Made by a program: the position numbers and the translations under genes
Assembly (NCBI RefSeq): GCF_033115175.1
Contig: NC_084827.1
Coordinates: forward strand, 23,430,001 to 23,494,000
Direction of reading: 5' to 3'
Length of the DNA: 64,000 nt
Source of the DNA: Lepus europaeus
Lineage: Eukaryota > Chordata > Mammalia > Lagomorpha > Leporidae
Shown: piece by piece, positions 23,983 through 41,718 of the stretch
Layout of the letters: every line of letters starts with the position of its first letter
Position numbering within the stretch: position 1 is the first letter of the stretch
The notes under the pieces: model-generated
The model's input: the letters and a program-made list of their open reading frames with translations, nothing else
Told to the model about the DNA's origin: nothing
The model's database searches: none

Positions 23983-24454
23983 ATTCTCTTTTCTTTTCCT
24001 CCCCAAACTGTGCTTTTGTTTTTCCTCTGGTAATCAGAGCCAAAAAGCTTCTGATATTGCTTGATGGATAGATCCTATCTTTAGATTTTCTACCATAATA
24101 TAGGGGATTGAAAACTGTGTGTTTTTGTGTTTTCATTGCAATTATTGAGAAGTGAAAACATACCTATGAGTATTTGATGAAGCTTTTCATTTCCAGTAGG
24201 CATGGCCAGTGTTATTTGGAAAGCTGAAGTATTCTTTTGAGGAACAGACCAGAGCTGGATCACTTAAGGAAAGAGAATTGAACACTATGAGTCCCAGAAA
24301 ATTTAACCTCTCACCAAAGGAATAATTGCCTTAATTCATTAGAAAGTATTCTATTTTGAAAAATAATAAAAAATAAATAAAGAACAAGTGAAATTATTAA
24401 AATTATAGCATTTTAATTTCTGCAAACATCAAATATCTTCATTTCTTCAGTGTT
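23983..24454. other. No gene recognised; spacer between two L1-type insertions
   Basis: 470 bp between the twin-primed L1 and the composite element. No features recognised. Confidence 0.45.
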
Positions 24455-24470
24455 GAAAAATGAATTTTTC

Positions 24471-25408
24471 AGAAGTGAGTATTCGAGAGCAGCAAGATGG
24501 CGTAATAGGGAGGGAGCACACTATTAGTCCGGGAGAGAGACAGGTTAATAAAAGTGGAGATACTGCAGAGTCAAGGAAGAGTAGGGGAAGAAACAGCAGA
24601 GGAAACTCTTCCGGAACTAGTGATTCACAGTGAACCTGTGTGGAGAGCGTAGGAGCCCAAGCTCGGGACACCAGCGGCAGACTCAACGCACAAGCGCTGG
24701 AACGCGAGGTGAGCCGAACCTCAATAGCCCGAGACACCAGTGGGAATGCGGAAAGAGGAGACTAGAGGGAACGAGGCTTGAAACTCCAGGGGGGAAAAGT
24801 TCACCAGGCTAACTAGAAGAGAGAGAGAGGGAAAAAAAAAAGTGACCGATACGGACATGAGTTTCTCTCTGTCCGCTCACCCCTCAAAGGCAAGCAATAC
24901 AAAGAGCAGGCACCATTTTGGACATATGTCATAAGCAGGGCGACCTCAGGTCTGCACCAGCCCTGAGCCTAGCAGAAAAACTTGACTCTGGGGGGAGGGG
25001 TGAAATAACAGGAGATTAGCATCTAACTTGGCAACCCAGTGGGAGACTGCAGGAGAATTGGAGCCCACACTGAGGGCAGCACAGATTCCCTGTGTGGTCC
25101 TTGGGAAAGAGCTTCTGATCTCTGGCTCCTGTGGGTATATCATTTGCCTAACTACCTCCAATTACGTTCAGCTGTGCGAATTACTTCCCTTTTGAATCAA
25201 AAAAAGAAAGAAAGAAAGAGAGATTTACCACACCTAACCTGGGAGTGTCATCTTTGACACACCCTCAACCCTGAGGAACCAAACACAGCTCTTAGGCCAC
25301 ACTCATCTCAAGCCTCTAAGGCTCCACTGAAAGCAGACAGTCCACTTAATATAGAGCCATAGTGTAACAAGAAAAAACACCACAGTGAAGAAACCAAATA
25401 TCTCCAAC
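24471..25408 (+). promoter_or_regulatory. L1-type 5' UTR / internal promoter of the composite element
   Basis: 938 bp from the TSD to the ORF1 start codon. It opens with AGAAGTGAGTATTCGAGAGCAGCAAGATGGCG, so the element starts at a normal L1 5' end rather than being truncated. The region is GC-richer than its surroundings and has several CpGs. Promoter activity is inferred from L1 biology, not shown. Confidence 0.75.
24493..24502 (+). promoter_or_regulatory. YY1-type box at the element's 5' end
   Basis: CAAGATGGCG contains the AAGATGG core of the YY1 site found near the first bases of L1 5' UTRs, where it positions transcription start. Its distance here, about 23 bp from the TSD, fits that role. 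Confidence 0.7.
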
Positions 25409-26421
25409 ATGCCATACAACAAACGCAAAAACCGAGGTAACAAGAACAAGGAAGACACTATGATGCCCCCAAATGAAAAAGACACCCCAATTCAAGATTA
25501 TGAAGATGATGAGATAGAAGAAATGCAAGAAGCGGATCTCAAAAAATTGATAAGAACATTAAGAAGTTCTCAAAAACAAATTCTTGAACTACAGAAATCC
25601 TTACTGGACAAGATAGAAAATCTCTCTCGTGAAAATGAAATATTAAGGAGGAATCAAAGTGAAATGAAACAACTAGTGGAACAAGAAACTCTGATAGTGA
25701 TGAGAAATCATAATGAAATGAAGAATTCAATAGATCAAATGACAAACACATTACATTAGAGAGCCTTAAAAACAGAATGGGTGAAGCAGAAGAGAGAATA
25801 TCAGACTTAGAAGACAGAGAACAGGAAAGGAAACAGTCAAATCAAAGAAAAGAAGAAGAAATTAGAAATCTAAAAAATATTGTCGGGAATCTACAGGATA
25901 CTATTACAAAACCCAACATTCGGGTTCTAGGAGTTCCTGAAGGCATGGAGAGGGAGAAATGATTAGAAGGCATTTTCAGTGACATACTAGCAGAAAATTT
26001 CCCAGGTTTGGAGAAGGACAGAGGCATCTTAGTACAGGAAACTTATAGAACCCCTAATAAACATGACCAAAAGAGATCCTCACCACGACATGTTGTAATC
26101 AGACTCACCACAGTGAAACATAAAGAAAAGATCCTAAAATGTGCAAGAGAGAAACGTCAGATTACTCTTAGAGGATCTCCAATTAGACTCACAGCAGACT
26201 TCTCATCAGAAACCCTACAAGCTAGAAGGGAATGGCGAGACATAGCCCAGGTACTAAGAGAGAAAAACTGCCAGCCCAGAAGATTATATCCTGCAAAGCT
26301 CTCATTTGTGAATGAAGGTGAAATTAAGACTTTTCATAGCAAACAGAAACTGAAAGAATTTGTTGCCACTCATCCTGCCCTGCAAAAGATGCTTAAAGAT
26401 GTGTTACACACAGAAACATAG
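25409..26421 (+). pseudogene. L1 ORF1 (RNA-binding chaperone), two disabling lesions
   Basis: ORF1p is the trimeric RNA-binding protein of the L1 particle. Start ATG 25409 (protein MPYNKRKN...), stop TAG 26419-26421; corrected for one insertion this is about 335 codons, normal for L1 ORF1. Visible parts: a charged N-terminus; a heptad-rich coiled coil (about codons 45-160); an RRM-like segment opening with NIRVLGVPEG; and a basic C-terminal domain with REKNCQPRRLYPAKLSF. Lesions: a 5-bp tandem duplication of ACATT (25748-25757) shifts the frame and creates TAG at 25757, and TGA at 25960-25962 looks like a CpG transition of an Arg codon. Otherwise the frame is clean, so decay is modest. Confidence 0.92.
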
Positions 26422-28120
26422 AAACATGGTCACCAATATGAAAGAAGGTAAAGGAAGGAAACCTCGCAGCAAAAGATCACAGGAAGCTAAATTTCCCTTT
26501 GACATAGAATTAAACTCTGATGCTCTGTTAAAGCAATGTGTTACAGTAATCTATTATGTTCTCTTGATGTCTGTTAAATTCTAATTGTTCAAAAACAGCT
26601 GAGTTTTTATTAAGAGCTATGGGTTATTTAAATATGTGCTTATTTTCAAAGATTTGAATAATCACCTGTAACAATGTTCAAATTTGGTCTATATTATGTC
26701 ATGATTTTAAGGAATCTTATTTCAACCAGATATTTTGGATTTTGAGCCTTGCTGGCATTCTTGACAGGCATTCAAAATATTAGAAGTACTCTCAAGATGT
26801 GATGTGGTACCAAACTTTATGTTTCTATAATGGAAAATGCTATTAATACAAATGTTTGAGAATTAAAGTCTAATGATCTTGTGTTACTAGACATGATAGT
26901 TATATTAATGAGAAAGCCCCAGAGACCTAAAGGGTTAAATAATTGTAAAATCATACAGGTGCTTTCAAAAATACTGTGAAGTAAGCAAGTGCCTCTTGTT
27001 GGTTGATGAGTTTATAATTTTAAACATGGCGACTTAAAGTCTTTTGTCATCCACAGTTATATATGATGTGCTGCTCATAAAACTAAAGCGTTGTTGGTTC
27101 TGTGTTTAGCTGTCCTCCTATAGGTTCCTATGGACTTTTTCCAGCCACTTCTATTGTATTCAGTACTTTGGGATGGCTCTGTAAACAGATGAAGCCAATA
27201 ATGTATTAACAGTACCAACTGAGAGAAAGTATGGTTACCTGAGGTTACTAAAAACAAAAAGCAATTCAAATCAATTGGCAATCTACAAAAAGAGTTAAAG
27301 ATTTTAAAAGCTATTATTAAAATTGCTATATTGGTCTATTATGCTATGTTATATGTGTATACATATTGTATGTCCACATGGGGAAATTTTATTAAGAGTT
27401 TTATTTTAAATGGCTTATAGATAAGATTGTCCATAAATTTAAGCTGCTAAAATCAATCAAAGATACATTTTAATTTGTGTGACCTGAATCTGTGTATCAT
27501 ATGTTGTAGACTTGTTGGTAGAAAGAAACTAAAAACATTTTAGATGGTTGTGCTTAAGTTTACTGGCTAAACAAACTACACCATGTTAGATATTTAAGAG
27601 GTGTTTTCAAATACATGATTCTTAAAATTTATAGAAGGCATTGGACCTTCTGGTAAATGTTTTCTTAAGTTGTTATCTAATGGTTGAAACGGTTTGCTAA
27701 GTATTCATTTGATATTGCTATTGTCAGCAAGCGATCTAGGACTTGCTCCCTCATTTCTCTATTCTAAGCCCAACTTGTTCTTTCATTTCTCTATTCTCTT
27801 CAAGGTAGGAAACTAATTCTATTATGAAAGAATCTGTAGGACGCACAATTTAATCTTTAGACCTTATAAAAGAGATGGCTAACATTTTTCTGTAATAGCA
27901 CAGCCAAAATAAGAACTTAAATAATAATCTCATAGCTAGATTCTCTTCTCCATCAGTGAAGTATACAGTAAGTAGAAAAAACCTCCCTTTCAGACCAAAG
28001 GGAAAGAAAGTTTTAAAGGGAGAATATAATTTTCCTCATGGGCATTGTCTACCTTAGAAAAACTACTACAGAACATGCATGTGACTATACACTCTTAGTT
28101 CAGGCCACCAAAGATTAGAG

Positions 28121-28432
28121 ATGGGACTTGGGCACTCCCTTGATTTGCATCCTCTGGTCTGCTTTAACACAAACCAGGAGGAAAAGAAAGCTAGGCATCA
28201 GAAGCAATGGGTGGCAGGCCTATTAATGGCTGATCTGTACAGTGATCTGCCCTCAAGGAGACCCAACAGGCCAGTCCACTGCAGTGGCTTTCAAAGTGGT
28301 AAGCCTGGGCTTCAGCAGAAGTCAGCTTGTGAAGAGCCCTGGCAGCTCTGCCAAGAGTTGGATCACTGGAAATGGACCTGCCCTGGAGTCGAAGGATGCC
28401 CAGGTCAGAGCCACAGATCTTATTGGCTCTAA
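28121..28432 (+). pseudogene. Decayed gammaretrovirus-like gag end (nucleocapsid) remnant
   Basis: The frame is open for 103 codons. It has a charged Gln-Glu-Glu-Lys-Lys-Ala-Arg stretch (about 28170-28200), as upstream of nucleocapsid in gamma-type gag. Two ruined zinc knuckles follow. The second (28340-28381) keeps x2-C-x4-H-x4-C spacing with His-Trp after the middle, but its first Cys is Trp. The first (28286-28330) keeps the GKPG core but has lost two Cys and the His, and its last spacing is one residue long. It cannot work as a nucleocapsid. The assignment is from spacing and context only. Confidence 0.55.
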
Positions 28433-28521
28433 GCTGAAAAGCCCTTCACTCAGCCCAACTTCCAAAGTGACCACTGCAGCTGAGGGGATGGTCAAGTAGG
28501 GTCAGCAACATTGCAGGCAGA

Positions 28522-28585
28522 ACTGTAAATTTCTTGTTAGAGATGCCCCCTGCCTTTACCTGGCCAGCTCTCCTCCCAGGCCAGC
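28522..28585 (+). pseudogene. Possible retroviral protease active-site remnant
   Basis: In another frame from the gag remnant, VNFLLEMPPAFTW resembles the start of an aspartic protease, with the Asp-Thr-Gly triad ruined to Glu-Met-Pro. Its place about 140 bp after the second zinc knuckle is right for a gag-pro order. Too short to stand alone. Confidence 0.35.
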
Positions 28586-29004
28586 CAAGTAATGAAAGTC
28601 AACAGAGTGCCTTCCCCTAGGAGGTTCACACCTCCCTTAGGATGTACCCCATGTGAAGAGATAGGTAGGTCTGGGCCTCTTAACTTACAAGGCCTAAAGC
28701 CCACCAGATTATTATCAAGCCCCTTCTATCAGGTTCTATTTGCCTCTCAATCAGAAAACTTAATTGTAGCTTAGACAGCACCTTTCTTAACTCCTCTAAT
28801 AATGACTCTGTCCTTTTTTCTAGACCCTGTCTAGCACACTTGGGCCTCATTCCTTTGTAATCATAACCTCTACTCTACCACCAATGGCTCTACTCCCAAC
28901 CTGTGTGTACTGATGGTCCTCTTCCCCACTTAATGCTGTATAATTGTTCAAACCTGGTAAATGCCACTCTTAGGATCATTGGTTACTATCCTCACCCTGT
29001 CTTT

Positions 29005-29456
29005 TATGACCTTGTCTAAATATGATCAGAGTCGGCAAACTTGGAAGGCTTCCATAGCCTTGGCAACTCATGATGAGAGCCTAGGGTGGTTACTGGCGCC
29101 ATAAACTAGAGTATCAATTTGTTGGGTCAACAACAGGAGCCACTGTGCACTTGCTCCTCATGTGGGATCTCTGTCCTTAATGTGCTGTACATTTTGATTT
29201 AATGCTATAACTAGTACTCAAACAGTATGTTTCACTTTGTGTTTCTATGTGGGTGCAAACTGTTGAAATCTTTATACTAAATTGATCTTCTGTATATAAA
29301 GAGAATTGAAAATGAGTCTTGATGTGAATGGAAGGGGAGAGGGAGCGGGAGAGGGGAGGGTTGCGGGTGGGAGGGAAGTTATGGGAGGGGGAAGCCATTG
29401 TAATCCATAAGCTGTACACTGGAAATTTATATTCATTAAATAAAAGTTAAAAAAAA
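29005..29456 (+). mobile_element. Terminal L1 3' UTR of the composite element
   Basis: Starts within the UTR (GACCTTGTCTAAATATGATCAGAGTCGGC), carries the CTGTCCTTAATGTGC block once (not duplicated), the G-rich purine tract (29329-29393), AATAAA at 29439-29444 and a short A-rich tail. In L1s this end is what ORF2p engages for reverse transcription, which could explain the composite's mobility. Confidence 0.9.
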
Positions 29457-29513
29457 GAAAAATGAATTTTTCTGCTTCTTATGAACATATTTCAATGAAG
29501 TAGTCTATTTCTT

Positions 29514-29836
29514 AAAAGCTTTATTTATTTGTTGAAAAGTAGAGTTACAGAAAGAGAGAGAGACAGAGAGAGAGACCTTCCATCTGCTGGTTCATTCGCC
29601 AGATAGCCACAAAGGCCAGGACGGGACCAGGCAGAAGCCAGGAGCCAGGAGCTTCTTTCAGGTGTCCCACATGGGTGCAGGGACCCAAGCACTTGGGCCA
29701 TCTTCCACTGCTTTTCCCAGGAAATTATCAGGGAGTTAGAACAGAAGTGGAGCAGCCAGGTCTCAAACCAGCAATGCCTATGGGATGCCAGTATCATAGG
29801 CAATGGATTTATCTGCTAAGCTATAATTCCAGCCCC
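29514..29836 (-). mobile_element. C-type SINE, minus strand
   Basis: Tail GCTTTATTTATTTGTTG, GA run, CTTGGGCCATCTTCCACTGC, and head ending in AAGCTATAATTCCAGCCCC. AAGTAGTCTATTTCT and AAGTGCTCTATTTTT at the flanks may be a TSD with three mismatches. It inserted about 40 bp beyond the composite element. Confidence 0.9.
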
Positions 29837-29851
29837 AAGTGCTCTATTTTT

Positions 29852-31210
29852 AAAAGACCTAGAATTATGTAAATGTGATTATTATTGAGAAGAGTCTCTA
29901 CATTATATGATTTAGGAACATGAAAGGCTTGATTTCTGTTATAATTTTCCAATATGCCAATCAAAATATTTCCCTGCCCTTGAAAATATGTTTGATGATC
30001 TCATATATGTGACTGAGAAAGGAACTTTAGAAAATGTTCTAATGACTCCATGAGTCTCAGTGAAAGAAATCTCTTGGATGTTGTTTTGTTTTTACAGTGC
30101 CTTCCTATATTCCAAATGTTTGTGATGTTATTTGTTCATTCATGATTCCCTCCCTTTGAAGGGAGTCATATTTTTCCTGTGCACAGTATCATTTTTAAGA
30201 TCTTGTAGGTTTGGCTTCTCCATTGGTCACAGCCATCTTACACCAGTGTGTTGCCATACTTCCTAATTGCATTACACAGACCATTAAACATGAAGCAGGG
30301 AGAACTAGAAGCCTGTCCAAGAAACGAATGTAGTGAAAATCATATGCAACTATTCCTCTTACCATTTTAAGTGATTGTAAAAGCTAATGGTTCTGTCCAT
30401 AAACAATGAAATCTTCAATGGAAAGACAAGAAAATTCAATACATGAGAGAAATTTAAAATAAAGCAATCACTTAAGAGGAGAAAAAAAAAAACCTCACAG
30501 TTGGTTACTTAGAAACATCCCCACACACATCCAAGTTTGGCACTTGAATGTATTCCATTTCAAATTTTGTCAAATGGTGATTAAATCTGAAGCAGGCAAA
30601 TTATGTTTAAAGTTTTTTTTTTTTTAAACTAAGACCATTTGAAAAGGAAGCATCCCAGAAACAGTCAGTCCTTTAACTGATAGAAACTATTTTCAGAATC
30701 AAAATGTGCTATCTCTTCCCAGGGTGTTGTGTTTCAGAATTTACCTAGACTTTCATTTTATTTATCCATGTGTTTTGGAAACCATTGCTCTAACATTGAA
30801 TATAGAAAGAGTTACAAATGATAGAGAGGAAACAAGAATGGTTGTTGTACAATATCTTGACTTCATTATCATAAAAATGCTTACAGTGCCTATTCTTAGC
30901 CTCCTTTGCATTAGGATCTAACTAGAAGTCAATTGACTTCTAGAAGTCATTTCTGAGTTCCCTATTTAGAGAAAGGTGGTGAGATCAAATTTCTAGGTTT
31001 ATCTTCTACTTGTTGAATACTTCAATGACTGTCTGTATTTGTCTTCAATTCCCATGCTATAAATAAGGTTGGATTTAACAATGTGAAGAATTTTCACACA
31101 TTGCTAAGTATGAAAAGTGTGTCATAAATGAACTGCATTGCTAGCTTATATTTCCTGAATAAAAGGGTGGATGATTGATGAAATGAGCTAACAATTTGAA
31201 AGTAAGGGTG
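29852..31210. other. No gene recognised; 1.35-kb unassigned stretch
   Basis: No SINE or L1. Only short A- or T-runs (30481-30491, 30613-30625). No coding motif. Confidence 0.4.
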
Positions 31211-41249: not shown

Positions 41250-41718
41250 TTCTTTTTTTTTAAACTTTTATTTAGTAAATATAAATTTCCAAAGTACAGT
41301 TTATGGATTATAATGGCTTTCTCCCCCCCATAACCTCCCTCACACCCACAACCCTCCCATCTCCCGCTCCCTCTCCCATTCCATTCACATCAGGATTCAT
41401 TTTCAATTATCTTTATATACAGAAGATTAATTTAGTATATATTAAGTAAAGTTTTCAACAGTTTGCACCCACGCAGAACAGAAAGTGTAAAATTCTGTTT
41501 CAGTACTAGTTATAGCATTAATTCACATTGAACAACACATTAAGGACAGGGATCCTACATGAGGAGTAAGTACACAGTGACTCCTGTTGCTGACTTAACA
41601 ATTTGACACTCTTGTTTATGATGTCAGTAATCTCCCTAGGCTCTAGTCATGAGTTGCCAAGGCTATGGAAGCCTTTTGAGTTTGCCGACTCGATCTTATT
41701 TAGACAAGGTCATAGTCA
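41250..41718 (-). mobile_element. L1 3' end, minus strand
   Basis: Left: poly(T) and AAACTTTTATTTAGTAAATATAAATTTCC. The C-rich complement of the 3' G tract is at 41325-41385. Right: GCCGACTCGATCTTATTTAGACAAGGTCATAGTCAAA. The copy is 5'-truncated in the UTR and has a single, not duplicated, AAGGACAGGGATCC block. Confidence 0.92.

Follow-up and report, generated by a model that had tools for sequence, protein, structure and literature searches.

How did a unit that begins like an L1 retrotransposon, encodes L1 open reading frame 1 (ORF1), departs from L1 for some 2.5 kb and ends in an L1 3' untranslated region (UTR) come to be inserted as a single piece? The question is raised by an element at positions 24471-29456 of a 64,000-bp stretch of Lepus europaeus DNA, hereafter the window (G000:C1:23430001-23494000, in a genome of 2.93 Gb). 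A preliminary description of the locus, made from the sequence alone, had reported an exact 16-bp repeat around all parts of the element, and this repeat, GAAAAATGAATTTTTC, was confirmed. The same description had suggested a half-L1 family that captured retroviral sequence; the analysis presented here upholds the half-L1 family, on the basis of shared joins and separate target-site duplications (TSDs), and gives no support to the retroviral capture. The window copy is one member of a dispersed family that numbers many thousands of copies genome-wide, and we estimate at roughly 90% the probability that this is a non-autonomous half-L1 (HAL1-type) family with an internal promoter and an ORF1p-coding RNA, moved by the ORF2p of L1.

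The joins of the element recur throughout the genome

A query placed inside the non-L1 middle of the element (26600-27600) gave 2,153 first-look candidates, and all 40 that were scored matched it, the main piece being 100% identical in the window copy and 95-98% identical in the others. Among 30 copies fetched with this query, the window copy included, 29 cross the join between ORF1 and the middle (ORF1 join), 27 cross the join between the middle and the L1 3' UTR (3' join), and 26 cross both, the exceptions being L018, which is 5'-truncated, and L008, L011 and L022, which stop short of the 3' join. With a query spanning the ORF1 join, 1,077 candidates were obtained, and each of the 40 scored matched over 300 or 301 of the 301 bases. 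Under a stricter test, applied to the 59 distinct copies fetched (69 loci minus 10 re-fetches), the ORF1 join was crossed by 57 copies, the 3' join by 27 and both joins by 25; loci obtained with the ORF1-join query, 30 in all, had been chosen for that join, and their stretches end before the 3' join.

Short patterns along the element were counted across the genome. The 26-mer of the 5' end had 1,994 matches with at most one mismatch, and with at most two mismatches there were 6,139 for the 26-mer spanning the ORF1 join, 13,065 for the site at 28202 and 16,893 for the 29-mer spanning the 3' join, the reversed control giving 0 in each case. The figure of 6,139 is an undercount, because its pattern follows the window copy; the most frequent form, present in 40 of 55 copies, differs from it at two bases. 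The counts climb from 5' to 3' as 5' truncation in target-primed reverse transcription (TPRT) predicts, with the caveat that not all patterns are equally sensitive. The equivalent segment of ordinary L1 3' UTR, defined from L1s within the window, had 18,665 matches at up to two mismatches, so that by these patterns the 3' join of this family is about as frequent as the corresponding part of ordinary L1.

The arrangement of the parts is also preserved. In the segment C1:0-45 Mb, 9 of 11 exact 5' ends have an ORF1 join 1,961-1,987 bp downstream and two do not, and an exact 3' join follows 16 of 81 ORF1 joins at a distance of 1.5-3.5 kb, against about 0.1 expected; this last fraction is a floor, only exact 3' joins having been listed. 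Nine of the 16 pairs are spaced by 2,641-2,664 bp. The preliminary description had pictured a family as many copies joined to ORF1 on one side and to the L1 3' UTR on the other, each with its own TSD. Both joins do recur at dispersed places, and a TSD is present in 7 of the 10 copies with both ends readable.

Copies carry the marks of L1-type insertion

TSDs, A tails and 5' inversions show that members of the family were inserted in the manner of L1. The TSD measures 16 bp in the window copy, 17 bp in L064, 16 bp in L068 and 11 bp in L018, and is imperfect in L063 (16 of 17 bases), L065 (17 of 18) and L013, where it is unusually long (63 of 64 bases alike). When flanks of the ten copies were paired wrongly, the score of the window TSD was reached by 1 of 90 pairs; the highest value among such mismatched pairs was 16, probably owing to flanks rich in A. 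The 5' part is inverted in three copies (L012, L049 and L069), and 5' inversion is the twin-priming pattern of L1. Furthermore, divergence from the majority sequence is similar across all parts of the element, with medians of 1.5-2.05% (8 to 47 copies), a pattern that movement of the element as one unit would produce; these values derive from the best-scoring copies and do not give the age of the whole family. In L067, a full copy with its A tail is followed directly by a second family piece that starts at element position 27965.

ORF1 was under selection in the source elements

The L1 ORF1 recognised in the preliminary description is indeed encoded, the piece 25963-26421 matching the Pfam families Tnp_22_dsRBD (1.6e-26) and Transposase_22 (6.5e-23). 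In the window copy, however, the frame, whose stop lies at 26449-26451, is broken by a frameshift near 25757 and by the triplets TGA (25960-25962) and TAG (26419-26421). Other copies are better preserved. An open frame of 300 codons or more is present in 23 of 45 loci covering ORF1 (the window enters this set twice), and in 11 of the 23 it has 345 codons; 10 of 46 distinct rows align to ORF1 with neither deletion nor stop, insertions being left uncounted.

Variation among the copies shows that ORF1 was selected in the source elements. Singleton variants are replacements or stops in 238 of 318 cases, against 238.4 expected from trinucleotide context, whereas variants present in at least three copies are replacements in 37 of 72 cases against 52.7 expected, a value as low being reached in 0 of 20,000 draws. 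Since shared replacements are depleted and singletons stand at expectation, the source copies kept ORF1 under selection. The same context-matched test applied to the 5' UTR, the AT-rich middle and 28085-28750 gave no signal in any frame, with fewer shared variants available (22 to 47). It replaced an earlier comparison of shared with singleton ORF1 variants (Fisher P 1.6e-4; 0.006 without CpG-type changes), because pseudo-frames of the noncoding middle also gave a lower shared ratio. When the three frames of ORF1 were tested in window coordinates (P 0.35, 0.99 and 0.007), the window frameshift confounded the result, which was not used.

Long open ORF2 frames of L1 are present in the same genome, dozens of the 150 scored matches to RVT_1 lying in open frames of 1,274 or 1,300 codons. 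Two L1s with a long open ORF2 (L074 and L075; 3.1 kb of each read) were compared with the family. Their ORF1 is 91% identical to that of the family in DNA and 88% in protein, and three family members differ from them by a synonymous divergence (dS) of 0.24-0.27 and a nonsynonymous divergence (dN) of 0.053-0.056 (dN/dS 0.21-0.22), indicating two ORF1 lines that have long been apart and have been constrained on the whole. To the left of the middle, L1 similarity stops at 26491, 40 bp beyond the ORF1 stop, while both L1s continue to the ATG of ORF2; L1 homology thus halts ahead of ORF2, which is missing from the family. The loss of L1 similarity for about 2.5 kb and its return, as first described, were accordingly borne out, with 26491 as the left end and 29005 as the right start. 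Between the 5' UTRs of the family and the two L1s there were short weak matches only. The 5' UTRs of L074 and L075 are GC-rich tandem repeats, unlike that of the family with its YY1-type box.

The middle exists in several structural forms

Self-comparison revealed a single copy of the middle within the window. Among the 40 scored matches, 10 (the window copy included) are unbroken and 29 carry about 140 bp extra at one point; L018 starts inside this block. The version found in the window copy, without the 140 bp, is matched at 30 places genome-wide, a number that a small lineage with an amplification of its own would give. Spacing between the ORF1 join and the site at 28202 was measured in 31 pairs and is 1,858-1,880 bp in 18 of them and 1,322-1,342 bp in seven, with 1,730 bp in the window copy. 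These two main spacing groups indicate that the middle has structural subfamilies, the second form (7 of 31 pairs) having a middle about 550 bp shorter. L032 and L035, both on contig C270, have in common a tandemly duplicated segment of about 371 bp in the region of the 140-bp block.

No convincing match to the reading frames of the middle was obtained in Pfam, PDB, the protein database or viral contigs, and middle pieces of other copies gave the same result, barring the Pfam family DUF2934 at E 0.13, under the cut-off. A search of RNA families found none, and comparison of the middle with four RVT_1 loci (L070-L073) gave no match. A coding middle was rejected, as no frame of 26800-27850 or 28085-28750 showed coding selection.

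The sole hint of a retroviral origin is a by-eye zinc-knuckle-like motif, WxxCxxxxHxxxxC, in the frame from 28085, to which none of these searches added a match. No pair of long terminal repeats (LTRs), which would have marked the middle as a separate insertion, was seen: a gap-free search of 24000-30000 listed 20 repeat families, among which no direct repeat exceeded 38 nt. A retroviral origin of the middle is not supported by these searches, although the middle may yet contain a decayed retroviral fragment.

Layout of the window copy

The features of the window copy are collected in Table 1. The preliminary description had set a normal L1 5' end with a YY1-type box at 24471. The box, CAAGATGGCG, which we take to be of the YY1 type, is in place, but the family 5' end lies about 14 bp further in. 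The conserved 5' end seen in other copies is GGAGAGCGGCAAGATGGCGG, and in 6 of 9 whole stretches fetched the similarity to the family sets in at 24485 or 24486; as for the other three, L061 starts at 24492, L063 has a 5' deletion and L069 has the inverted 5' part. At the opposite end, the return to an L1 3' UTR with AATAAA and a tail was verified. This UTR (about 450 bp) is matched at 80-92% by five further L1 3' ends within the window, and in four of these the match begins at 29005 or 29008. The L1 3' end and the neighbouring SINE resemble lagomorph repeats, which fits the lagomorph label of the preliminary description. A truncated L1 on the minus strand at 41714 begins at nearly the same base as the L1 3' UTR join of the composite. 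The family 3' end may thus derive from a truncated L1 copy that was read through and used as a terminator.

Table 1. Parts of the window copy and their positions in the window.
Feature	Positions	Strand	Basis or remark
Left TSD, 16 bp	24455-24470	+	Exact match to 29457-29472
Extra 14 bp ahead of the family 5' end	24471-24484	+	Family homology begins further right
5' UTR, presumed internal promoter	24485-25408	+	5' end conserved in other copies
Box CAAGATGGCG, presumably YY1-type	24493-24502	+	Within the 5' UTR
L1 ORF1; 345 codons where open, interrupted in the window copy	25409-26451	+	Pfam, ORF listing
Start of the L1 ORF1-ORF2 spacer	26452-26491	+	Final L1-like base on the left is 26491 in the alignment with two L1s
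Non-L1 middle, no recognisable protein	26492-29004	+	Family matches; no convincing protein-family match
Site of about 140 bp missing from the window copy	26776-26777	+	Block present in most fetched copies
115-codon frame with by-eye zinc-knuckle-like motif, first Cys lost	28085-28432	+	No supporting search match
L1 3' UTR end, purine-rich block	29005-29456	+	Matches five other window L1 3' ends; AATAAA 29439-29444; A tail 29449-29456
Right TSD, 16 bp	29457-29472	+	Exact match to 24455-24470

Proposed mechanism and alternative explanations

We propose that the RNA of the element starts at an internal promoter, presumably the region of the YY1-type box, encodes L1 ORF1p, continues through the 2.5-2.65 kb of non-L1 middle and would end in the L1 3' UTR and a poly(A) tail. 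The ORF1p made from this RNA probably binds the same RNA in cis, and ORF2p, presumably supplied in trans by complete L1s, would nick the target and prime reverse transcription on the A tail by TPRT. Complete L1s are thus the most likely source of the enzymes by which the family moves.

Several observations weigh against this proposal. The fetched copies are the best-scoring ones and hence the nearer part of the family. Among the ten copies with both ends read, L062 and L067 have no clear TSD, L066 sits in an A tail and has an ambiguous one, and the score of the 11-bp TSD of L018, weak when taken alone, is reached by 8 of 90 mismatched flank pairs. The L1 origin of the 5' UTR rests on its position and motif, and the region differs from both L1s compared. 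Moreover, dN/dS among three open family copies is higher than that against the two L1s, at 0.44-0.61, which is not strong evidence by itself and is expected if copies decay once inserted.

These same dN/dS values, together with the broken frame of the window copy and the 22 of 45 covering loci that lack an ORF1 frame of 300 codons, could be read as signs that ORF1 is a passenger, the RNA depending for its movement entirely on L1 proteins supplied in trans, as processed pseudogenes do, and ORF1 lasting only because the family is young. Such an explanation appears improbable, since replacements shared by at least three copies are depleted while singletons are neutral, and the noncoding parts lack that signal, albeit with fewer shared variants. 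The single TSD that brackets all parts in the window would also suit one chimeric insertion formed by template switching in a single event; the genome counts refute this, the same joins recurring at many places with different TSDs, and we give it almost no credence. Equally negligible is the probability that the family spread by segmental duplication instead of retrotransposition. The tandem duplication common to L032 and L035 implies that a few copies may be related in that way, but retrotransposition is favoured by the A tails, by the 5' inversions, by counts that rise from 5' to 3' and by the separate TSD and flanking sequence of individual copies.

A more specific version of the half-L1 proposal can be offered tentatively, and we consider it more doubtful than probable. 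The family would be an undescribed half-L1 lineage whose ORF1 evolved separately from that of complete L1s under selection (dS about 0.26) and whose captured non-coding middle has a function in the RNA, aiding it in the competition for ORF2p. The 3' end would for that reason be about as common as that of L1, and the middle would change by gains and losses of blocks, such as the 140 bp missing from the window copy and the form shorter by about 550 bp.

Comparison with known retroelements

An endogenous retrovirus would differ from the element in having paired LTRs, which were not seen in 24000-30000. The SVA and LAVA elements of hominoids offer a second comparison, SVA being the nearest composite with captured retroviral sequence among the elements compared: the part of the published account considered here describes hexamer repeats, an Alu-like region, a variable number of tandem repeats (VNTR) and a 3' part, derived in SVA from the retrovirus HERV-K (PMC7353768). 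Like these elements, which the same account presents as mobilised by L1 proteins (PMC7353768), the window family is composite and non-autonomous, with TSDs and poly(A). It differs from them in encoding L1 ORF1p and in being without a long tandem array; within 24455-29472 no VNTR domain was found, the tandem arrays there being five short, low-score ones of 19-26 bp.

The nearest likeness is to the half-L1 (HAL1) elements of mammals, which have a poly(A) end and TSDs and were reportedly described by Smit in 1999 and by Bao and Jurka in 2010. HAL1 is characterised, in the portion of the literature cited, as an L1 derivative that codes for ORF1p only and arose several times in mammals (PMC5753468). 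The guinea pig HAL1 is stated to have kept ORF1 for some 29-44 Myr, which the cited section takes as a need for ORF1p in cis and ORF2p in trans (PMC3627910). The families named as HAL1 in the cited part of a further survey are those of marmoset and guinea pig, and its row for rabbit elements less than 1% divergent holds LTR families only (PMC3183009).

Half-L1s bear on why a parasite of L1 retains ORF1 although L1 could supply ORF1p in trans. With many copies, an open ORF1, a selection signal and L1s with a long open ORF2 in one genome, the requirement for ORF1p in cis becomes testable. The family also shows that a half-L1 is able to carry a payload of about 2.5 kb across many rounds. For annotation, its 3' end could be taken for that of an ordinary L1. 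A literature search, with Repbase and Dfam outside its reach, found no description of the family.

In summary, the window family resembles HAL1 in being derived from L1 with ORF1 retained and ORF2 lacking, in being a multi-copy family whose members show L1-type insertion (TSD, A tail and 5' truncation), and in maintaining the coding capacity of ORF1 in its source copies. What sets it apart, as far as the HAL1 descriptions cited in part above extend, is the non-L1 block of 2.5-2.65 kb that separates ORF1 from the L1 3' UTR, together with a 3' join that, by the patterns counted, is about as frequent as the ordinary L1 3' UTR. It is a half-L1 plan with a long non-L1 middle, new as far as the literature was checked, repeat libraries excepted.

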